Both the position numbers and the translations under genes were made by a program. A stretch of DNA of 64,000 bases, from NCBI RefSeq assembly GCF_006912135.1, contig NZ_VIRS01000004.1, positions 1 to 64,000 of the forward strand. Reading direction: 5' to 3'. Numbering within the stretch: the first letter of the stretch is position 1; each line of letters begins with the position of its first letter. Below the pieces are notes generated by a model. It did no database searches, was not told the origin of the DNA, and saw nothing but the letters and a program-made list of their open reading frames with translations. This stretch comes from Cryptosporangium phraense. GTDB taxonomy: Bacteria > Actinomycetota > Actinomycetes > Mycobacteriales > Cryptosporangiaceae. This document shows positions 1,812 to 13,076 of this stretch, piece after piece.

Positions 1812-4349
1812 GTGCTGAGCCCAGGATCTCGCCTCGCGACGTACGAGGTGCGCAAGCGTCTCGCCGTCGGCGGCATGGGCGAGGTCTACCTGTGCCGGCA
1901 CCGTCTGCTCGACCGGGACGACGCGGTCAAGGTGCTCCGCCCCCACCTGGTCGCCGATCAGGCGTTCCGGCGCCGCTTCCTGCGCGAGGCGCTGTCCGCG
2001 GCCCGGCTGCGTCACCCGCACATCGTCACGGTCTACACCGCCGACGAGGTCGACAAGCAGCTCTACCTGGCGATGGAGTACATCCCGGGCGCCGACCTGG
2101 CTGCGATACTCGACCGCGAGCAGGTCCTCGAGCCCAAGCGCGCGGTCCGCCTGCTCGACCAGGTCGCCGACGCGCTGGACGCCGCCCACCGGCTCCAGAT
2201 GACCCACCGCGACGTGAAGCCGAGCAACGTGCTGGTCGAGCGTCCGGGCTCGCCCGACCTCGAGCCCGGCGGTCCGCACGGCGGGCCCGAGCATGCTTAC
2301 CTGGTGGACTTCGGCCTGTCCAAGAGCGCCCAGGCGATGGACCAGGACATCACGATGACCGGCCAGGTCCTCGGCACGGTCGCGTACATCGCGCCGGAGC
2401 AGTTGCAGGGCGCGGTCACCGACGGTCGCTGCGATCAGTACTCGCTCGGCTGCATGGCGTTCGAGGTCCTGACCGGCCAGTTGCCGTTCCCCCGCGACAA
2501 CCAGGTCGCGGTGATCACCGCGCACCTCACCGCTCCGCCGCCGTCCGCGGTCGCGCTCCAGCCGTCGCTGCCCCGCGCGGTCGACCGCGTGCTCGCGATG
2601 GCGATGGCCAAGACCCCGCAGGAGCGGTTCGGCACCTGCAAGGAGTTCATCGACGCGCTGCGCTCGGCCGTCGAGACCGGCGAGACCACTGTGGTCCAGA
2701 AGCCGCCGCCGCGGCTCGACCGGCGCACCCCGAGCGGCGCCGAGGCCCGTCAGGAACACGCCTGGGCGAACCCGGCGAACCAGGGCGCGGCGGTCGTCGC
2801 CGACGGCGAGTCCCGCCGGTCCCGCCGGTCGGCCGACCGCACCCCGCCTCCGCCGCCGTCGGCTCCGGTCGGAGCGCCCGCGCCCCCGTCGCACAGCGAC
2901 GCGCCGGACGACCCGCCGTCGGCGGCCAACCCTCTCGATCAGCCGTTGGCGGACGTAGAACCCGCGGCCGGAAAACACGGCGCGGACGCCGAGCAGGCCG
3001 GCAGCGGGGGCGGACGGCACGCCGCCGAGCCGAGCGTGCCCGTCGCCGAGGAGACCGAGGCGCCGCCGAAGCCGGTCAGCTCCGACCCGGCTGCCCCGCC
3101 CGGGTTCACGCTGCCCGACGACACCCCGTTCGGGCTCGGTCACCTGCAGGAACTGCCCCCGGAGCGGGGCGGCAACCCGTACGGCACCACGCGCAGGCCG
3201 ACGCCGTCCGGGTCGGCGCCGGTCTCGCCGTCCGGCCCGGCGCCGGTCTCCGGCGGGGGCTACCGGCCGTACACCGCGACCTACCCGGCCGGGGCCCCGC
3301 TGCCGACCAGCGCGCCCCCCGCGGCCGGGCGCGCACCGGAGAGCCGGCTCTACCTCGCGGTCGTCGGCGGCCCGGACGCCGGGCGGTTGATACCGCTGCC
3401 CGACGGCGAGCGGACGGTCCCGATCGGCCGGGTCGCGATCGGCTTCACCGTGACCGGCTGGACCGTGCAGGTCGCCGGCGACGCCGACACCCAGATCAAC
3501 GGCGAGCCGCTGCACGGCGTCCGGCAGTTGGCGCCAGGCGACCTGGTCACGGCCGGGCCGTCGCTGATGGAGGTCCGGTCGGCCCGCCACCTGGCCCGGC
3601 TGGCCCCGAACGCTCCCCCGCCCGACCCGGTGACGCTCGACCGCGTGGCCCGCGACCGGCTGGCCGGCGCGGTGCGCGGCCCGCAGCATCCGCAGACGCT
3701 GGTGACGCGGATCGGGTGGCTGGCCCGGCGTCCCCCGGTGCCGATCGCGGTGCCGGTGGGCAGCGCAGGCGGGATCGCGATCCGGGGGCCGTTGCCGGCC
3801 GCGGTGCCGCTGGTGCGCTGGATCCTGACCCAGGCCGCGGTGCTGCACGACGCCCGTGACCTGTCGATCGCGCTGGCCGCCGGGCCGACCGACGACGAGC
3901 GCTGGGCCTGGGTGCCGTCGCTGCCGCACGCCCGGCCGGCCACGCCCCCGCTGTCGGGCACGCATGTCGCGACGACGCGGGACGGCGCGCTCGACCTGAC
4001 GACCCGGCTGCGACAGTTGGTCGAGGTGCGGCGGGCGGCCGCGGGTGACCCGCGGGCACGCCAGTTGCTCGCGCTGCCCCGGGTCGTGGCCGTGCTCGAC
4101 GACCGGCTCGGCGGCCCGGACTCCGAGTTCGTGACCGCAGCGGGCGGGAGCCTCGGCGTGCACGTCGTCCGGCTGCTGCCGCCGGAGGCCCGGCCCCCGG
4201 CGAGCTGCCGGCTCTGCATCGACCTCGACCCGCGCGGCCAGACGCTGACCGTCTGGGTCGCCGGGCGCAACGGCGCTCAGAGCGGGGTCCCCGACGGCGT
4301 CAGCGCGCTGTACGTCCGGGAGGTGGCGGACCTGCTGGCCGACAGCTAG
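1812..4349 (+). CDS. Ser/Thr protein kinase fused to FHA-like and EccC/EssC-like regions
   Basis: An 845-residue protein. The kinase domain (about residues 8-275) is complete: glycine loop GGMGEVY near 20-26, lysine K39 in DDAVKVLRP, HRDVKPSN near 131, DFG near 166 and an APEQ motif. A proline-rich linker (about 290-510) follows. Residues ~511-600 look like an FHA-type sandwich (GRLIPLPDGE, VPIGR, TQINGEPL) but lack the SxxH phosphopeptide-binding motif. Residues ~630-845 resemble the stretch that precedes the first ATPase domain in type VII secretion ATPases EccC/EssC (PPVPIAVPVG, LVRWILTQAAVLHDARDL, WAWVPSLPHARP), yet no Walker A follows. No membrane segment is evident, unlike classical Pkn receptors. 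GTG start at 1812. It converges on a TetR gene and the two share a CTAG stop. The kinase call is firm; the C-terminal relationship is read by eye. Confidence 0.88.
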   Translation: MLSPGSRLATYEVRKRLAVGGMGEVYLCRHRLLDRDDAVKVLRPHLVADQAFRRRFLREALSAARLRHPHIVTVYTADEVDKQLYLAMEYIPGADLAAILDREQVLEPKRAVRLLDQVADALDAAHRLQMTHRDVKPSNVLVERPGSPDLEPGGPHGGPEHAYLVDFGLSKSAQAMDQDITMTGQVLGTVAYIAPEQLQGAVTDGRCDQYSLGCMAFEVLTGQLPFPRDNQVAVITAHLTAPPPSAVALQPSLPRAVDRVLAMAMAKTPQERFGTCKEFIDALRSAVETGETTVVQKPPPRLDRRTPSGAEARQEHAWANPANQGAAVVADGESRRSRRSADRTPPPPPSAPVGAPAPPSHSDAPDDPPSAANPLDQPLADVEPAAGKHGADAEQAGSGGGRHAAEPSVPVAEETEAPPKPVSSDPAAPPGFTLPDDTPFGLGHLQELPPERGGNPYGTTRRPTPSGSAPVSPSGPAPVSGGGYRPYTATYPAGAPLPTSAPPAAGRAPESRLYLAVVGGPDAGRLIPLPDGERTVPIGRVAIGFTVTGWTVQVAGDADTQINGEPLHGVRQLAPGDLVTAGPSLMEVRSARHLARLAPNAPPPDPVTLDRVARDRLAGAVRGPQHPQTLVTRIGWLARRPPVPIAVPVGSAGGIAIRGPLPAAVPLVRWILTQAAVLHDARDLSIALAAGPTDDERWAWVPSLPHARPATPPLSGTHVATTRDGALDLTTRLRQLVEVRRAAAGDPRARQLLALPRVVAVLDDRLGGPDSEFVTAAGGSLGVHVVRLLPPEARPPASCRLCIDLDPRGQTLTVWVAGRNGAQSGVPDGVSALYVREVADLLADS

Positions 4350-5512: not shown

Positions 5513-6313
5513 TCAGGCAGTCACCAGTGATTCGAGACGTTCGGCAACGGCGAGCGCGCTCGACGGGCGTTCCGTGCGGTCGGCGGCGATCGTCCAACGG
5601 ACGATGTCGGCGAGGGTCTCGTCGAGGCCGGGCGCGATGGTCGGGGGCGAGGAGAGGACCTTGCGGAGCGCCAGGACCGGGTCGTGGTCCGGGAGCTCGC
5701 CGTGGAGGCCCTGCTGGGTGAGCGCATAGTGCAGCGTGACGCCGAGGGAGTACACGTCGCTGGCCCGGGACGGGGGCTCGCCGTGCAGCACGTCGGGGTC
5801 GACGAACTCGATCGAACCCAGGGAACCCATGCCGGTCAGCGTCATGCCGGGGGCGAGCACCTGGGAGAGGCCGAGGTCGGAGAGGCGACCGCCCTCGGGG
5901 TGCAGCAGGACGTTGCCGGGCTTGATGTCGCGGTGGACGATGCCGGCCTCGTGCAGCGCGTGCGCGGCCCGGGCCGCGTGGGCGACGGCCCGCAGGGTCG
6001 CGGACTCGTCGAGCAGGTACGCGGGCTCGGCCAGCGAGCCGTCGGGCAGGTACTCCATCGAGTAGTAGAAGACACCGCCCTGCTGGCCCGCGTCGTACAG
6101 CGTGACCAGGAACTCGGAGCGGACGGCGGCGAAGGCCGCGAGCTCGCGCGTGGCGCGGCGGAAGACCTCCTGAGTGGTCGAGCCGGACAGCACTTTCACG
6201 GCGACCAGTTCGGCCTCGACCGGAAGGCGGGACGGAGTCTTGGCGAGGAAGAACTCACCGTGGTTGCCGTCGCCCAGGGACCGGACGAACTCGTAATCGG
6301 CGATTCCTTCCAC
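5513..6313 (-). CDS. Small Ser/Thr protein kinase with DLG in place of DFG
   Basis: A 266-residue kinase consisting of little more than the catalytic domain. The GTG start at 6313 is preceded by the strong ribosome site AAAGGAGAGG; an open frame extends further upstream without such support. Visible motifs are the glycine loop LGDGNHGEFFLAK (13-25), K40 in VAVKVLS, HRDIKPGN (127-134) and DLG (146-148) in place of DFG. The APE segment is also altered (FVDPDVLHG). The metal-binding aspartate is kept, so activity is plausible. There is no transmembrane segment or sensor domain, suggesting a soluble kinase. It is divergent from the antiporter gene, 121 bp apart. Substrate unknown. Confidence 0.88.
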   Translation of the reverse strand: MEGIADYEFVRSLGDGNHGEFFLAKTPSRLPVEAELVAVKVLSGSTTQEVFRRATRELAAFAAVRSEFLVTLYDAGQQGGVFYYSMEYLPDGSLAEPAYLLDESATLRAVAHAARAAHALHEAGIVHRDIKPGNVLLHPEGGRLSDLGLSQVLAPGMTLTGMGSLGSIEFVDPDVLHGEPPSRASDVYSLGVTLHYALTQQGLHGELPDHDPVLALRKVLSSPPTIAPGLDETLADIVRWTIAADRTERPSSALAVAERLESLVTA

Positions 6314-6434
6314 GTGCCTCTCCTTTAAGTCCGTTTCCCGACGAACCCTCACTTCGGTCGGTCGGCGATGTGAAACTACCGGCCGGAGCCCACTGGATAG
6401 GTCGGCTACCGGACTCAGGACAGGAGCGACGCCG

Positions 6435-8420
6435 GTGACTGCGCACGATGTCGGGCTGCTGATGCTCGATCTGGCCCTGATTCTCGTGCTCGCACGGGTC
6501 GGCGGCTGGCTGGCCAGGAAAGTCGGCCAGCCCCCGGTGATCGGCGAGATCATCGCCGGTATCGCCCTCGGCCCGACGATCATCGGCCCGCACCTCTCGA
6601 CGTTACTGGTACCGGTCGATCTCCGAGTGCCGCTCTCGGCGTTGGCGAACGTCGGGCTGGTGCTGTTCATGTTCATCGTCGGCTACGAGCTGGACCACAC
6701 GCTGATCCGCGGGCGGGAGCGGGTGGCGGTCAGCGTCTCGGTCGGATCGATCATCCTGCCGTCGGTTCTGGGGATCACGCTGGCGCTGTGGCTGGCTGAC
6801 CGGCACGGGGTCTCGGCCGACGACCGGCTGCCGTTCGTGCTGTTCCTGGGCGCGGCGATGTCGATCACGGCGTTCCCGGTGCTGGCCCGGATCCTGACCG
6901 ACCGGGGTATGCACCGCACCCGGCTGGGCGGGCTGGCGCTGGCCAGCGCCGCGGTCGACGACGTGATCGCGTGGTCGCTGCTGGCGGTCGTCGTGACGGT
7001 GGCCGGGGCGTCGGCCGAGGCGCAGTGGCACGTGCTGCTCGCGCTGCCGTTCGTCGCGCTGATGTTCTTCGTCGTGCGTCCGCTGCTGCGCCGGTTGCTG
7101 CCGGTGCACGCGCGGGCGGGCCGGCTGACGCCTCCGGTGCTCGCGGTGATCCTGATCGGGCTATTGCTCTCGGCGTACGCGGCCGAGTGGCTGGGCGTGC
7201 ACGTGATCTTCGGGGCGTTCATCTTCGGCGCGGTGATGCCCCGGGAGGGCGGCGAGGCGCTCCGGCAAGACATCCTGGAGAAGCTCGAGCAGGTATCGGT
7301 CCTGCTGCTGCTCCCGGTGTTCTTCTTCGTCTCCGGCATCAAGGTGGACCTGCGGAACGTCGGGCTGTCCGGGCTCGGCGAGCTGGCGCTGATCCTGGTG
7401 GTGGCGATCAGCGGCAAGTTCGTCGGGGCGTTCGTCGGGGCCCGGCTGCAGCGGGTGCCCCTGCGTCAGTCGTTCGCGCTGGCCACGCTGATGAACACCC
7501 GTGGGCTGACCGAGATCGTGATCCTGACCGTCGGGCTGCAGCTGGGGATCCTGGACTCGTCGCTGTTCTCGCTGATGGTCGTGATGGCGATCGTGACGAC
7601 GGTGATGGCCGGCCCGCTGCTCTCGGCGTTCTACTCGAAGCGCCGGATCGAGCGGGACATCGCCGAGGCCGAGCGGGCGTCGCTGGGGACGGTGGCGGCT
7701 CGTCGCGTGTTCGCGGTCGTGGACGACCCGGCGACGCAGAAGGCGGACGTCGAGTTGGCGGCGGCGCTGGTCGGGGCGCAGCGGCCGGCCGAGGTCGTGC
7801 TGTCGCGGCTGCTGCCGTACCGGTCGCCGGCGTTGGAGGTCGGAACCGGGCTGTCGGGGGAACTGGCCGAGATGGCGCGCTCGCTGGAGGAGACCGAGCG
7901 GTTGGCGGCGCGGGTCCGGCGGGACGATCTGCCGGTGCCGGTCCTGTCGCGGTTCTCGAGCGACGTGGAGCACGACCTGGCGCTGCAGATCGAGGCGTCG
8001 GGGCCGGACGTGGTGGTTTTTCGTTCGTCCCGGCCCGGGATGGGTCCGGTGGTGGCCGGTGAGCTGGTGACGGTGGCGTCCGGGTTGCCGGAGCGGCCTT
8101 CGGCGGTGGGGGTTGGGTGGGGCACCGATGCCGATTCGGTGGCCGCGTTGCGGGCGGCGGCGTTGATCGCGGCCGCGCGGCGGTTGCCGTTGGTGATCTC
8201 GGATTCCGGGCGGCGGGCCTCGGCGGCGGCGACGGAGTTGACCCGGCACGGGGTGGCGACGTCGGTGGGGGCGGTGCCGTCGGATGCGTTGGTCGTGGCA
8301 GGTGGGGTGGAGTTGGCGGAGGGGGAGCACGTGGCGGTTCGGGCGGCGCTGGACGCGGATGCCTCTCCGATCGGGGACTGGATCGGGATGGTGCCGGTGG
8401 AGGTGCCGGTTCCGGCCTGA
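6435..8420 (+). CDS. CPA2-type cation:proton antiporter with Usp-like C-terminal region
   Basis: A 661-residue protein. Residues ~1-395 form a 12-13 helix Na+/H+ exchanger domain of the KefB/GerN type (GQPPVIGEIIAGIALGPTI near the start; SITAFPVLARILTDRG; MNTRGLTEIVIL near 355). It should exchange K+ or Na+ for protons across the plasma membrane. The C-terminal ~260 residues are soluble and alanine-rich with UspA-like alternation rather than a TrkA-N domain, so gating by NAD is not evident. GTG start at 6435 with GGAG upstream. The gene is divergent from the DLG kinase and upstream of the 8501 gene in the same direction; phosphorylation of the soluble part by that kinase is only a guess. Confidence 0.88.
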   Translation: MTAHDVGLLMLDLALILVLARVGGWLARKVGQPPVIGEIIAGIALGPTIIGPHLSTLLVPVDLRVPLSALANVGLVLFMFIVGYELDHTLIRGRERVAVSVSVGSIILPSVLGITLALWLADRHGVSADDRLPFVLFLGAAMSITAFPVLARILTDRGMHRTRLGGLALASAAVDDVIAWSLLAVVVTVAGASAEAQWHVLLALPFVALMFFVVRPLLRRLLPVHARAGRLTPPVLAVILIGLLLSAYAAEWLGVHVIFGAFIFGAVMPREGGEALRQDILEKLEQVSVLLLLPVFFFVSGIKVDLRNVGLSGLGELALILVVAISGKFVGAFVGARLQRVPLRQSFALATLMNTRGLTEIVILTVGLQLGILDSSLFSLMVVMAIVTTVMAGPLLSAFYSKRRIERDIAEAERASLGTVAARRVFAVVDDPATQKADVELAAALVGAQRPAEVVLSRLLPYRSPALEVGTGLSGELAEMARSLEETERLAARVRRDDLPVPVLSRFSSDVEHDLALQIEASGPDVVVFRSSRPGMGPVVAGELVTVASGLPERPSAVGVGWGTDADSVAALRAAALIAAARRLPLVISDSGRRASAAATELTRHGVATSVGAVPSDALVVAGGVELAEGEHVAVRAALDADASPIGDWIGMVPVEVPVPA

Positions 8421-8500
8421 TTCCGGATCCGGTCGCCGGCTGGCTGCCGGAGGCGGGCTGATCGGTGGAAGCGTCGGGGGGACGCTCTATCGTTCGGGGC

Positions 8501-10384
8501 ATGGCGGAATCGTCGCGGGCGCCGTTGTCGGCTCTTCTCCGGCCGGGAGAGCGGCTCGGCTGGATGTTCCGTGACCGCAAGCTGTTCCGCCGCCCGTTCG
8601 GGCAGCCGCCGCCGACGCTCACCGAGGTGCCGCCCGAGGTGGTGGCGTCGGCCCGGGCGGCGAACCCGCACTTCCTCCGGAACATCGCGATCGCGGTACC
8701 GGCCGCGCTGATCGCCAGCTTCATCGTCGTCTGTGGGCTGAGCCTCGTCGTCTTCCGTGGGAACGGGGGCGGCTGGGGCTTCCTGGTGATGATCGTGCTC
8801 GTGCTGGTGATCTTCGGGCTGGCCGCCGGGGGCGTCTGGCTCGGCGCGCAGAGCGCCCGCACGGCGGCGAACCGGCCGAACGCGATGGCCGCCGAGCAGC
8901 GCGCCCGCTACGACCGCGAACTGGCCGACTGGCACTCCCGCAAGGCCCAGTTCGAGCAGCAGGAGCAGCAGCGCAGCGAGCAGTTCCCGGAGTGGTCACC
9001 GGCCGCTCCCCCGCCGCAGACCCGTCGAATCGACATCGTCGGCGGCACGCTCTGGGGCTGGGAGGGGCTGCTCACGGTCTTCGGTTCGTCCACTCTGGCC
9101 GGCGGCGGCCAGCTCACCGTGCTCGACCTGACCGGCGAGGGCGTCGTCCGCGAGCTGGCCGAGGTGGCCGGCGAGGCCGGCCTCTCCACCGACGTGCAAC
9201 TGTTCCCGGCCGACCTGGCCTCGGCCGACGTGCTGGCCGGCCTCGACGAGCGTCAGTTCGTCGACGTGCTGGTCGAGGCGGTCCACGGTGGAGAGGGTGG
9301 CGACCGGTTCGAGCGTTCGGCCGACGACCGCGTGCTCGGCGCCGTCTGCGCGGTGCTGGCGCCGGGCGGGCTGACGGTGGCCCGGGTGCTGGCGTCCCTG
9401 CAGGTGCTGCTCGGGGAGGCGGCTGATCTCCCGGCCGAGGAGCAGGCGCGCGTTCTCGGGGCCTTCTCGGAGCAGTACCGGCACGAGATCGGGCCGCGGT
9501 TGCGTCAACTGGAGTCGCTGCTGCACCCGCTGGCACCCCTCGGCAGCGCGGCCCAGCCCCGGCCGCCGGCCCAGCTGTCGTGCATCGCGACGCTGAGCAC
9601 CGGCAGCACCGCGCGCGACGAGGTGCTGGGTGACCTGGTGGTGCAGCGGCTGACCCGGGGCGCGGCCACCGGCGAGGCCGGCGGTGCCCCGCGCACGATC
9701 GCCGTGGTCGGGGCCGACGAGATCGCCCGCCGGCACCTGGAACGGTTGTCGGACGTGTGCGAGCGACGGGGCATCCGGCTGCTGTACCTGTTCCGGCACC
9801 TGCGGGGGACGTCGCTGCAGGTGCTCGGGGCCGGGGCGGTCGGCGTGATGCGGCTCGGCAATCACCAGGAGGCGAACGAGGCCGCGGAGTTCATCGGCCG
9901 CCAGCAGCGGTTCGTGCTGAGCCGGTTGACCCGTCAGCTCGGCGGGGCCGAGACGCACACGACCGGCGAGTCGGAGACGCTGACCAGGGGTAGTCGTCCG
10001 ATGCCGTCGGTGCGCCGGCCGTGGCAGGCGCTGTCCGGGCTGGTGGGCAACTCGTCGCGCTCGTGGCGGACGACCGAGGGGCACGCCGAGGGCACGAACT
10101 GGAACAACGCCGAGACCTACGAGCGGGCGTCGGAGTTCACGGTGGAGCCGCGGACCCTGCAGGGGTTGCCCGACTATGCGATGTTGCTGGTGACGGCCGG
10201 GCAGCAGGGGCCGGTGGTGACGGCGGTCGAGTGCAACCCCGACATCGTCTCGTTGCCCCGGGTGGCGATGGAGCCGCTGCCTTCTTCGGGGGGTGGGTCG
10301 CCGATCGGGCAGGTGGCGCCGCCGATGGCGCTGCCCCGGCCGCCGACCCCGCCTCGGGGGCCGGGAAGCCCGCCCGCGCCGTAG
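8501..10384 (+). CDS. Two-TM protein resembling a TraG/VirD4-type coupling ATPase without a P-loop
   Basis: A 627-residue protein that I cannot assign firmly. It has a short cytosolic N-terminus, two membrane helices (about 62-85 and 92-114), a charged helical stretch with Gln/Glu-rich sequence (~125-165), then a large soluble domain. The order of motifs recalls type IV coupling proteins: a strand-turn at VFGSSTLAGGGQLTVLDLTG where the nucleotide site would be, PRTIAVVGADEIARRHLERL in the Walker B position, then RGIRLLYLFRHLRG and a terminal region ending QGLPDYAMLLVTA. No GxxxxGK[ST] is present. ATG at 8501 is preferred over one 36 bp upstream. It is convergent with the FHA gene 23 bp away. 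Possible roles are a scaffold or secretion-associated membrane protein. Confidence 0.6.
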   Translation: MAESSRAPLSALLRPGERLGWMFRDRKLFRRPFGQPPPTLTEVPPEVVASARAANPHFLRNIAIAVPAALIASFIVVCGLSLVVFRGNGGGWGFLVMIVLVLVIFGLAAGGVWLGAQSARTAANRPNAMAAEQRARYDRELADWHSRKAQFEQQEQQRSEQFPEWSPAAPPPQTRRIDIVGGTLWGWEGLLTVFGSSTLAGGGQLTVLDLTGEGVVRELAEVAGEAGLSTDVQLFPADLASADVLAGLDERQFVDVLVEAVHGGEGGDRFERSADDRVLGAVCAVLAPGGLTVARVLASLQVLLGEAADLPAEEQARVLGAFSEQYRHEIGPRLRQLESLLHPLAPLGSAAQPRPPAQLSCIATLSTGSTARDEVLGDLVVQRLTRGAATGEAGGAPRTIAVVGADEIARRHLERLSDVCERRGIRLLYLFRHLRGTSLQVLGAGAVGVMRLGNHQEANEAAEFIGRQQRFVLSRLTRQLGGAETHTTGESETLTRGSRPMPSVRRPWQALSGLVGNSSRSWRTTEGHAEGTNWNNAETYERASEFTVEPRTLQGLPDYAMLLVTAGQQGPVVTAVECNPDIVSLPRVAMEPLPSSGGGSPIGQVAPPMALPRPPTPPRGPGSPPAP

Positions 10385-10407: not shown

Positions 10408-12636
10408 TTACGGGTTGCGGTGGGACTCGTAGCGGAAGCCCCGGCGGCCGAAGACCACCCGGGTGCCCGGGGTCAGCGTCACTTTCTGGTTCGGGTCCAG
10501 GCGGGTCCAGGACTCGCTGTTCGGGGGCGCTATGTGCGTCCCGTTGGCCGACGCCAGATCGATGACGTTGACGTCCCAGCCGTCGAGTTCGATCCTCGCG
10601 TGGATTCGCGAGACCACGCCCTTCGGGTCGTCGATCCGGAGGGCTCGGGCCCGGCCCTGGAGGACGGCCTCGTCGCGTTCCGGCTCGCGTCCGACGACGT
10701 AGTCGGTGTCGAGGCGGAACGTTGCTCCGTCGTCGAGGACCAGGAGGCCCAGCGGCGGACGGGGACCCGTGCGCGAGACGTGCGTGAGCTGCGCCATCGA
10801 GATGCCGCAGACCGCGCAGTACGGCACGCGCGGATCGTTGAAGTGGTCGTTCTTGCAGTAGATGCCCAGCACGATCGGGCGGGCGTCCGCCTCCTCGGCC
10901 CCGTCGGCGGGAACCGGGCCCGGCGGCGGCTGGACGTCGGCCGGCGGCAGGGGGCCGGACGTCTGCGTCGGCTCGGCGTCGTCGCCGATGAGCAGGACCG
11001 CCTCGAAGGGGGCGCCCGGGTCGAAACCGGCCGGTCGCGGCGCGGCCGGTGGGGCCGACGACGGCTGGAGGGCCGGGTCGGGGACCGGCTGGTCCGGAAG
11101 TACCGGTGAGGGTCCGGTGGGCGAGTACGCCCCCGGGGCCGGGGGCGCATCGAACGGTGGCGCGCTGGACGGCGCCGCGCTCGACGGCGGGGCGCTGAAC
11201 GGGGCCGGGGGCGCGCTGAACGGAGCCGGGGGCGCGCTGAACGGGGCCGGGGGCGGGCCGTCGGGGGCCGGGGGCATGGGGCGGTCGCCGTACGGCGCGT
11301 CCCCGTACGGCGGAGGCGGCGGGAGCGCCGGGTCGCCGTAGGATGCCGGGCTTCCGAACGGGGCGGGAGGAGCGGGCGGCGCGTCGCCGAACGGCGCCGG
11401 CTCCCCGAACGGCGCCGGCGGCGCGGACGACGGGGAGACCCCGTACGGCGCTGGCGGCGCGTCCCCGAACGCCTGCGGCGCAGGCGGCGGCGATTCGTCG
11501 CCGAACGGCCGTGGCGCAGGCGGCGGTTCGTCGCCGAGCGGCCGCGGCGGAGCGGAGTCGCCGAACGGAGAAGGCGGCGCGGAGTCGCCGAACGGCGCGG
11601 CGGGCGGCCGGTCACCGTGCGGCTCGGAGTCCCCGAACGGCACCGGCGGCGCGGATGCCGGAGAGTCGCCGAACGGCGCCGGCGGCGCCGATGACGGTGA
11701 GTCGCCGAACGACGGCCGGTCACCGAACGGAGCAGGCGGCGCCGAAGCCGGCGAATCGCCGAACGGCGCGGGCGGCGCGGGCGGCGCGGAATCGTCAGCC
11801 GGCGGCAGCAGCGGAGCGGACTCCGCCGGAGCCGAGAACGACGCCGGCGGCTCGTAGCCACTCCGCGACACCGCCGCCGCCCCCCGAGGCGGCACCGCGT
11901 CCGACTCCACCGACCCCGGCCTCGGAACGAACTCCGAATCCCCGTCGAACGGCGTGAACGCCTCCGTCCGCTGCAACGGCTCGTCGTCAACGTCGTCGTC
12001 GTCATCCACCGCCACGAGCGACGGCCGCACCCCGGAAGACACCGCCGTCGCGGTGACCGAAGGCGCCGAAACCTCAGAAACCACCACCGGAGCCACAGCC
12101 GGCGCCGGAGCCACGGCCGGCGCCGGACCCGGAGCCACGGCCGACGGAGGCCCGAACACGAACCCACCCGCCCGGACGACCCCACCATCGAGCCGCAACC
12201 ACGGGTCAGCCGAACCCGCCCCGAGCGCGTCGAGCTCACCGCGGATCACCCGAGCCGGCGCCGCGATCATCCGGTCGACCCACGTCAACGCGTCCCGGCC
12301 GTCGAGCACGATCTCGCCGTCGTCGGTCACGACCGCGACCTGCACGTCCCCGTGCAGGATCACCGCCACGCCGTCGCCGACCGGACCGAACGCGGCCAGC
12401 GCCGGGAACTCGTCGGCCGCCGAGATCAGCAGCGACGCCAACCGGCGCCCGAGACGACGCCCGTCGCCGCCGGCCGCCGACGCGATCACATCGAGGATCG
12501 ACGCCGTCCGCTCGTCGTCGCCCTCGGGCGCCGCGTAGAGCAGCACGAGATCGCCGTACCGGGCCAGCAGGCCGGAGCCGGCGACCGGCGCGAGCGTCCG
12601 GTCGTCGGGCTTCTCATCGGTGTTACCTGTGGTCAC
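10408..12636 (-). CDS. Zinc-ribbon and FHA domain protein with long proline-rich repeat region
   Basis: A 742-residue cytosolic protein, last gene of a three-gene operon. The GTG start at 12636 overlaps the TGA of the upstream gene (GTGA) and follows GGGAGG. The N-terminal ~190 residues are an unrecognised globular domain (RYGDLVLLYAAP..., DGVAVILHGDVQ). Residues ~245-510 are a low-complexity region of PFGD and PPAPFS repeats. A possible zinc ribbon follows near 590-612 (YCKN...YCAVCG). The C-terminal FHA domain (~630-742) keeps its binding motifs: VVGRE, SRIHAR and ANGTHI. It should bind phosphothreonine, for example on the kinases encoded nearby. Links to those kinases are inference from position. 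Confidence 0.85.
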   Translation of the reverse strand: MTTGNTDEKPDDRTLAPVAGSGLLARYGDLVLLYAAPEGDDERTASILDVIASAAGGDGRRLGRRLASLLISAADEFPALAAFGPVGDGVAVILHGDVQVAVVTDDGEIVLDGRDALTWVDRMIAAPARVIRGELDALGAGSADPWLRLDGGVVRAGGFVFGPPSAVAPGPAPAVAPAPAVAPVVVSEVSAPSVTATAVSSGVRPSLVAVDDDDDVDDEPLQRTEAFTPFDGDSEFVPRPGSVESDAVPPRGAAAVSRSGYEPPASFSAPAESAPLLPPADDSAPPAPPAPFGDSPASAPPAPFGDRPSFGDSPSSAPPAPFGDSPASAPPVPFGDSEPHGDRPPAAPFGDSAPPSPFGDSAPPRPLGDEPPPAPRPFGDESPPPAPQAFGDAPPAPYGVSPSSAPPAPFGEPAPFGDAPPAPPAPFGSPASYGDPALPPPPPYGDAPYGDRPMPPAPDGPPPAPFSAPPAPFSAPPAPFSAPPSSAAPSSAPPFDAPPAPGAYSPTGPSPVLPDQPVPDPALQPSSAPPAAPRPAGFDPGAPFEAVLLIGDDAEPTQTSGPLPPADVQPPPGPVPADGAEEADARPIVLGIYCKNDHFNDPRVPYCAVCGISMAQLTHVSRTGPRPPLGLLVLDDGATFRLDTDYVVGREPERDEAVLQGRARALRIDDPKGVVSRIHARIELDGWDVNVIDLASANGTHIAPPNSESWTRLDPNQKVTLTPGTRVVFGRRGFRYESHRNP
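11190..11252. repeat. 21-bp tandem repeat inside the FHA gene
   Basis: About three near-identical 21-bp units (core GGGGGCGCGCTGAACGG) encode three copies of APPAPFS in the proline-rich linker. Looser 24- to 36-bp repeats encoding APPAPFGD-type units continue to about 11780. The period is a multiple of three, so copy number can vary without breaking the frame. Confidence 0.7.
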
Positions 12637-13076
12637 ACGAACCTCCCACCCCGGAACCGCCAGTGGATCGAGAACACCCTCATCGGGCCGTTCGCGAAGG
12701 CCCAGACTGCCATCCAAACCAGGATGAAGAGAATCCAGTAGGAAAGTGACTGCAATCCGGTGAGCCCGTCGATGCCCGGGACGACGCCCGACAGCAGCAG
12801 CGCCCAGACGAGCAGCCCCTCGTTCACCAGCGTCAGCAGGCCGAACAGCGTCGGCCAGTCCTTCTCCCACCGCCACTGCATGAGGAAGTGGTACAGCAGC
12901 TCCCAGAGCACGCCGACGACCGTCACGGTCACGATCACGGTGTAGGCGATCCGGTATTTACTGCCGAGAGCCACCCCGAGCGGCAGGAACGGCGTCACGA
13001 CCAGCGCCACCAGCCCGCCGATGACCAGCGTGAACACGATCCGCGACTGGATCCGGCCCCATAACGTGGGCAACAT
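12633..13076 (-). CDS. Small four-helix membrane protein of the FHA operon
   Basis: A 147-residue protein with about four predicted membrane helices (near 14-34, 42-64, 78-98 and 112-130), a basic N-terminus (LPTLWGRIQSRIVF) and a short basic C-terminal tail (FSIHWRFRGGRFV). I do not recognise a named family. It lies 13 bp after the flavoprotein gene and overlaps the FHA gene by GTGA, so the three are surely co-transcribed. It could anchor the FHA protein or the flavoprotein at the membrane; nothing in the sequence shows a catalytic site. Confidence 0.75.
   Translation of the reverse strand: MLPTLWGRIQSRIVFTLVIGGLVALVVTPFLPLGVALGSKYRIAYTVIVTVTVVGVLWELLYHFLMQWRWEKDWPTLFGLLTLVNEGLLVWALLLSGVVPGIDGLTGLQSLSYWILFILVWMAVWAFANGPMRVFSIHWRFRGGRFV

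Follow-up and report, generated by a model that had tools for sequence, protein, structure and literature searches.

Why would a serine/threonine kinase carry, at its C terminus, a piece of a type VII secretion ATPase? The question is raised by the open reading frame 1812–4349 of the window, by which we mean the whole 64,000-nucleotide stretch of Cryptosporangium phraense DNA analyzed here. This frame has a strong third-position GC signal (0.95) and is a single gene, encoding a Hanks-type Ser/Thr kinase, a variable proline-rich linker, an FHA-like domain, and a DUF domain—the degenerate ATPase domain of EssC and EccC (Table 1). A sequence-only reading had claimed a kinase, an FHA-like fold, and a P-loop–less EccC/EssC-like region here, and Pfam (kinase), NCBIfam (EccC-like part), and hhalign (FHA-like and EccC/EssC-like parts) bear it out; we regard the anatomy and the homology as very nearly certain. 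What is new is the combination of domains, since its components belong to known kinds, and a literature search, mostly outside subscription journals, found no described kinase–EssC/EccC fusion. Only kinase-type Pfam families match the 845-residue protein, with no match to Pfam FHA or FtsK_SpoIIIE. A convergent TetR-type gene on the opposite strand overlaps the TAG stop codon by four bases; thus, no ATPase domain follows residue 845. We considered a truncated or frameshifted full-length EssC and rejected it, because the next gene is this opposite-strand TetR gene and all six orthologs found (see below) share the same end point.

Table 1. Features of the kinase–FHA–DUF gene, in window coordinates
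Feature	Coordinates	Strand	Basis or detail
Whole gene	1812..4349	+	845 aa; GTG start at 1812, TAG at 4347-4349
Hanks-type Ser/Thr kinase domain, residues ~8-290	1833..2681	+	Pfam PF00069 Pkinase, residues 11-274, E 7.5e-43
Pro-rich variable linker, residues 291-509	2682..3338	+	Identity 34% (44 sites) to the G004 copy, 29% (154 sites) to the G008 copy
FHA-like domain of EssC type, residues 510-592	3339..3587	+	hhalign with EssC-type ATPases, HMM match, Foldseek, alignment
Connector, residues 593-640 (EssC counterpart: TM helices and stalk)	3588..3731	+	Gap structure in hhalign; no TM segment
DUF / degenerate ATPase domain of EssC/EccC, residues 641-845	3732..4346	+	TIGR03924, hmmsearch, hhalign, tree
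Degenerate Walker A position, residues 657-667	3780..3812	+	Alignment of 67 DUF rows
Walker B-like strand ending Asp-Asp, residues 757-764	4080..4103	+	Alignment of 67 DUF rows

Does the N-terminal part look like a working kinase? It has the glycine loop, a VAIK-like lysine, and the HRD, DFG, and APE elements (GGMGEVY, HRDVKPSN, DFG, and APE in the window's copy), and the catalytic motifs are intact in all six fusions; phosphotransfer activity is putative. Several threonines lie in the activation loop (TMTGQVLGT), and the best matches among solved structures are 7naa, PknE, and PknB. The NF033483 profile is covered only from position 9 to 299 of 563, with 290.2 bits against a cut-off of 450, and the protein is not a full-length PASTA kinase of the PknB/Stk1 type. 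Beyond the kinase domain, the linker differs greatly in length from those of the G004 and G008 copies. A Kyte–Doolittle scan found no transmembrane (TM) segment in the window's fusion protein or in four of the other five; the G004 copy has one marginal segment (1.64). The same scan found TM helices in 10 of 10 EssC-type proteins.

The FHA-like fold that the sequence-only reading had put forward after the linker stands on three concordant results: the hhalign alignment to the FHA domains of EssC-type ATPases described below, HMM matches, and Foldseek hits to FHA proteins. Used by itself as an HMM, the FHA part hit 28 frames at i-E<1e-3, with 4.1e-11 as the lowest value. These frames include repeats of a single protein, and every one of them bears the DUF. 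An AlphaFold model of residues 510–845, made from a two-row alignment (the window's copy and locus L059), was of low confidence (mean pLDDT 39.4); block means reached 50–73 in the first ~80 residues only, and the DUF part stayed at about 25–45. With this model, Foldseek returned 304 matches at E<=10, including 21 at E<=0.001 that are all FHA domains or FHA-bearing proteins, the best being the Rv0020c FHA (4.7e-5). The best 50 of the 304, GarA and OdhI among them, were FHA domains, FHA-bearing proteins, and FHA-like secretion domains; EccC is absent among these 50, the query model being informative for the FHA part only. FHA domains bind phosphothreonine through GR, SxxH, and NG residues. This set is incomplete in the four own-genus copies, which are shortened by about 20 residues and lack SxxH, and the G004 FHA retains VGRS and an SHL (SxxH-like) stretch. 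Several EssC FHA domains have a similarly degenerate appearance.

To which secretion ATPases does the C-terminal part belong? Residues 643–843 match NCBIfam TIGR03924 (EccCa) on profile positions 182–377 of 673 (E 5.9e-14), a partial match that scores 51.8 bits where the whole-protein cut-off is 509, and the matched stretch precedes the first true ATPase domain; TIGR03928 (EssC) matches at E 0.0015. A profile of residues 510–845 from the six orthologs (336 residues) recovered, among solved chains, 4nh0 (1e-5) and EccC3 (8.3e-5 to 1.4e-4) by hmmsearch, and EccC5 chains at 0.012 and 0.053 only, with unrelated matches starting at 0.03. Aligned by hhalign with a profile of eight EssC-type ATPases, the same six-ortholog profile gave a single collinear alignment (E 7.2e-35, 345 columns, query 6–351 to template 108–597): FHA falls on FHA, the TM helices and stalk form a large template insertion, DUF falls on DUF, and the alignment ends before the Walker A motif of the first ATPase domain, D1. 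Residues 510–845 therefore align upstream of the first ATPase domain, which was the check proposed with the sequence-only reading, and its homology claim is supported. Against the two EccC proteins of the C. phraense genome, only the DUF part aligned (E 8.5e-9). By homology the domain is the DUF of EccC/EssC; missing are both the TM helices that would precede it and the Walker-bearing FtsK/SpoIIIE domains.

The absence of a Walker motif, which the sequence-only reading had treated as odd, proved to be the normal state of this domain: no GxxxxGK[ST] was found in any of the 67 aligned DUF rows (nor anywhere in the six fusion proteins), and the EccC5 DUF, whose crystal structure (taken to be PDB 8rin) is described in passages of PMC11154593, has no P-loop and is reported neither to bind nor to hydrolyze ATP. 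The unusual points are instead that the true ATPase domains and TM helices are absent and that a kinase is placed N-terminally. At the Walker B position all six fusions read Asp-Asp, compared with DG in 34 and DD in 2 of the 43 other EssC-side rows, and DG in 17 and DD in none of the 18 EccC-side rows. The fusion pair aligns with the LDD of EccC3 in the PDB, which seems to correspond to D319/D320, two residues whose replacement by alanine stops secretion (as retold in part of PMC11154593). Because only 2 of 61 EssC/EccC rows read DD, the Asp-Asp of the fusion may be a separate change rather than a retained secretion feature.

A tree of the 67 DUF rows (246 columns, IQ-TREE, midpoint root only) unites the six fusion DUFs (100/98) and puts them on the EssC side. 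The 18 EccC-side rows, including both C. phraense EccC proteins, split from the EssC side at 97/94, and descent of the fusion from the EccC of its own genome was rejected on this placement. The position of the fusion group within the EssC side is not fixed by the tree, and its stem is long (1.02). Rows were labeled EssC if they had any match to the FHA part at E<=10 (36 rows) and "U" otherwise (25 rows); 7 U rows lie inside the EssC side. The C. phraense genome itself holds two full EccC genes, on contigs C11 and C37, surrounded by genes of WXG100 size (judged by size only), and no FHA-bearing EssC was detected in it. Genome G004 encodes two ATPases on the EssC side of the tree.

How widespread is this architecture? 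We found it in six genomes (C. phraense, G001–G004, and G008) spanning three genera and two families. Among 61 relatives' genomes, the C-terminal 336 residues had some match in 45 and a near full-length match in 6, with identities of 87–88% within the genus and of 49% and 45% beyond it; in the other genomes, the match mostly starts at about query position 100–135 and mostly lies in frames of about 1,000–2,100 residues. Larger samples, which overlap and in which the best five candidates per genome were scored, gave the same picture: matches in 53 of 397 genomes of the order (E<=1e-15), full length again only in those six; in 12 of 394 of the class (E<=1e-20); and in 3 of 396 of the phylum (E<=1e-22), the last two with full-length matches only in C. 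phraense. All five genomes examined in its own family carry the fusion, as does one of three in the family of G008, another of the three (G035) being 74% complete. A total of 101 of the frames of at least 250 residues in 110 loci bear the DUF (E<1e-5). Kinase and DUF occur together in 17 of them, several being duplicate loci (L059, of equal contig and protein length, is apparently the G004 copy on contig C218), and all 17 come from the six fusion proteins; the survey took mostly 1,500 bases of flank and the best loci per search, so that upstream kinases or fusions in unsampled genomes could escape it. Six DUF frames below 880 residues, representing four distinct proteins, have no kinase. As stand-alone short DUF proteins, L022/L054 and L094 were rejected, because their frames reach the end of the contig and resemble a cut EssC; L038/L109 and L110 belong to the incomplete G035 and fall on the EccC side, L038 on a very long branch. 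Of two scans of genome contigs, the first found no relative and the second only L059, and scans of viral contigs found no fusion relative. Two IMG/VR contigs (L111 and L112) encode proteins distantly related (33–35% identity) to EssC in its first FtsK/SpoIIIE-type ATPase domain; they were left out of the alignments. In a plasmid collection, FtsK/SpoIIIE-annotated genes of three Streptomyces records gave matches with 32% identity that cover 43% of the query.

The surroundings of the gene are shared as well. In all six loci, a single gene separates a MazG gene from the fusion; this intervening gene is small and lipoprotein-like by its N terminus in the own genus and G004 (in the window, with a SurA-like domain below cut-off) and of no recognized kind in G008. 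An antiporter gene (6435–8420) is also near the fusion in the genus and in G008. Neighbors with a family match are MazG, the below-cut-off SurA-like lipoprotein, TetR, a second kinase, the cation antiporter, and an FHA protein, and no type VII secretion gene was recognized beside the fusion. The second kinase gene (5513–6676, minus strand; Pkinase E 1.5e-30), within 9 kb of the fusion, recurs in the G001–G003 loci. Within the same distance, a long proline-rich protein (10408–12876, minus strand) ends in an FHA domain (E 5.4e-8); it is found also in G001, G002, and G008 (62% over 206 residues), the G003 stretch being too short. The frame 8465–10384 (plus strand) encodes a 639-residue membrane protein in which two hydrophobic segments can be seen by eye near the N terminus. 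It has no Pfam or NCBIfam family over cut-off, and 6 of 61 genomes have a match to it (four of the own genus, G018 at 41%, and fragments in G035); its candidacy as a second EssC derivative was rejected (hhalign probability 1.6%). We also asked whether a kinase is a regular neighbor at EssC loci and rejected the idea: the kinase domain of the fusion (E<=1e-5) matched in 1 of 11 EssC-type loci (L056), some of them short or cut at contig ends, and in neither of the two C. phraense EccC loci. In L056 (4463–11774), an unfused kinase gene (849 residues, Pkinase E 3.9e-56) adjoins the ATPase and a WXG100 gene. At another EssC-type locus (L044, 4335–7837), the ATPase gene adjoins DUF58 and transglutaminase-core (TgpA-like) genes, and a DUF58 gene is present in L056 too.

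Is the C-terminal cassette maintained by selection? In four own-genus pairs (Nei–Gojobori), dN/dS was 0.13–0.16 for the kinase, 0.09–0.23 for the FHA, 0.10–0.14 for the connector and DUF, and 0.20–0.62 for the linker. Judged by these ratios, purifying selection within the genus acts on the DUF as it does on the kinase. Between genera, the FHA and DUF diverge faster than the kinase by sequence comparison, with identities to the G004 and G008 copies of 74 and 64% (kinase), 46 and 40% (FHA), and 48 and 45% (DUF). Because own-genus dN/dS is low, the cassette is, on this measure, kept by selection and not a relic. An error in assembly or gene calling, or a relic that is decaying beside a lost ATPase, would account for the odd architecture, which is all that speaks for it; six genomes with the same architecture and shared synteny, dN/dS well below 1, and the opposite-strand TetR gene starting in overlap with the stop leave that explanation a negligible chance.

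What might the cassette do for the kinase? According to passages of PMC9600267, YukB/EssC contacts YukC/EssB in Bacillus subtilis through its FHA region, which binds the partner's kinase-like domain independently of phosphorylation. The EccC5 DUF is described as forming monomer, trimer, and hexamer species (part of PMC11154593), so that it may assemble with itself into rings, and as bound to the cytosolic domains of EccD (part of PMC8131196). Because such interactions are reported elsewhere for the YukB FHA and the EccC5 DUF, the cassette is best read, by analogy, as a binding or multimerizing module, and we consider this probable. As a docking and oligomerization module rather than an enzyme, it would cluster the kinase, promoting trans-autophosphorylation, and/or place it on a cytoplasmic partner; the leading candidate partner would be a type VII secretion complex, namely, the EccC machines of the same genome, and the kinase would then phosphorylate that complex or its partners. 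This explanation, taken whole, seems to us evenly balanced between right and wrong, and a type VII machine as the target of the kinase is a tentative suggestion that may well fail. The idea put forward in the sequence-only reading, that the tethered kinase could sense or mimic a secretion ATPase, is likewise conjectural. Counting against docking are the lack of an adjacent secretion gene, the own-genus FHA domains without SxxH, and the faster divergence of the cassette between genera. A partner of the parental, FHA-EssC type may also be absent from the genome, as only two EccC were detected there.

Two other readings accept the same anatomy. A domesticated oligomerization scaffold, in which the cassette serves solely to cluster or autoregulate the kinase and the link to secretion is lost, would fit a genome with no detectable FHA-EssC, family-matched neighbors that are not secretion genes, and the trimers and hexamers of the EccC5 DUF (PMC11154593, in part); yet the partners reported for the parent domains are secretion parts (in sections of PMC9600267 and PMC8131196), and self-association of the fusion DUF is only putative, so that we see this scaffold as a serious contender, though a somewhat doubtful one. 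A phospho-switch is improbable. Here the FHA would regulate the kinase by binding its activation loop or linker once phosphorylated, or else by binding a substrate, with the DUF as a spacer; the VGRS and SHL stretch of the G004 copy and the activation-loop threonines favor it, but four own-genus copies have no SxxH, the YukB FHA contact is described as phosphorylation independent (PMC9600267, in part), and within the genus the constraint on the DUF matches that on the kinase, beyond the need of a spacer. A bolder version of the docking reading starts from an active kinase joined to the domain type of EssC that binds the EssB pseudokinase: the fusion could act as a decoy ATPase subunit in the cytoplasmic ring, gating secretion by phosphorylation. 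We think this unlikely; if true, it would be a natural record of a direct signaling axis from a kinase to a secretion ATPase.

The conserved fusion suggests either that the kinase signals directly to type VII secretion machines or that parts of such machines have been put to a new use. The roles in type VII secretion of the EccC/EssC DUF and of the EssC FHA domains are stated as open questions in passages of PMC11154593 and PMC9600267, respectively. That the two domains are under selection while attached to a kinase suggests a self-standing module, and the fusion cassette offers a soluble construct for probing FHA and DUF binding partners. If the target is indeed the secretion complex, the fusion would feed a kinase signal directly into type VII secretion.

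How does the fusion compare with known systems? With EssC/YukB of T7SSb-type systems, and with the actinobacterial EssC-type proteins that have an FHA, it shares the collinear order of FHA then DUF; unlike them, it has no TM helices and no D1–D3 ATPase domains, and it carries a kinase in front. With EccC of ESX systems (T7SSa) it shares the DUF domain, but no FHA aligns in EccC, and the fusion DUF lies on the opposite side of the tree, without motor domains or TM helices. PknB/Stk1-type PASTA kinases have the kinase domain in common with it, whereas the fusion lacks a TM segment and its C-terminal part is EssC-like. The pseudokinase EssB/YukC has a kinase fold, and YukC binds the FHA region of YukB (PMC9600267, in part), so that the fusion joins both kinds of domain in one chain; EssB/YukC, however, combines a degenerate kinase with a TM helix and an extracellular domain, whereas the fusion kinase keeps its motifs intact and has no TM segment.
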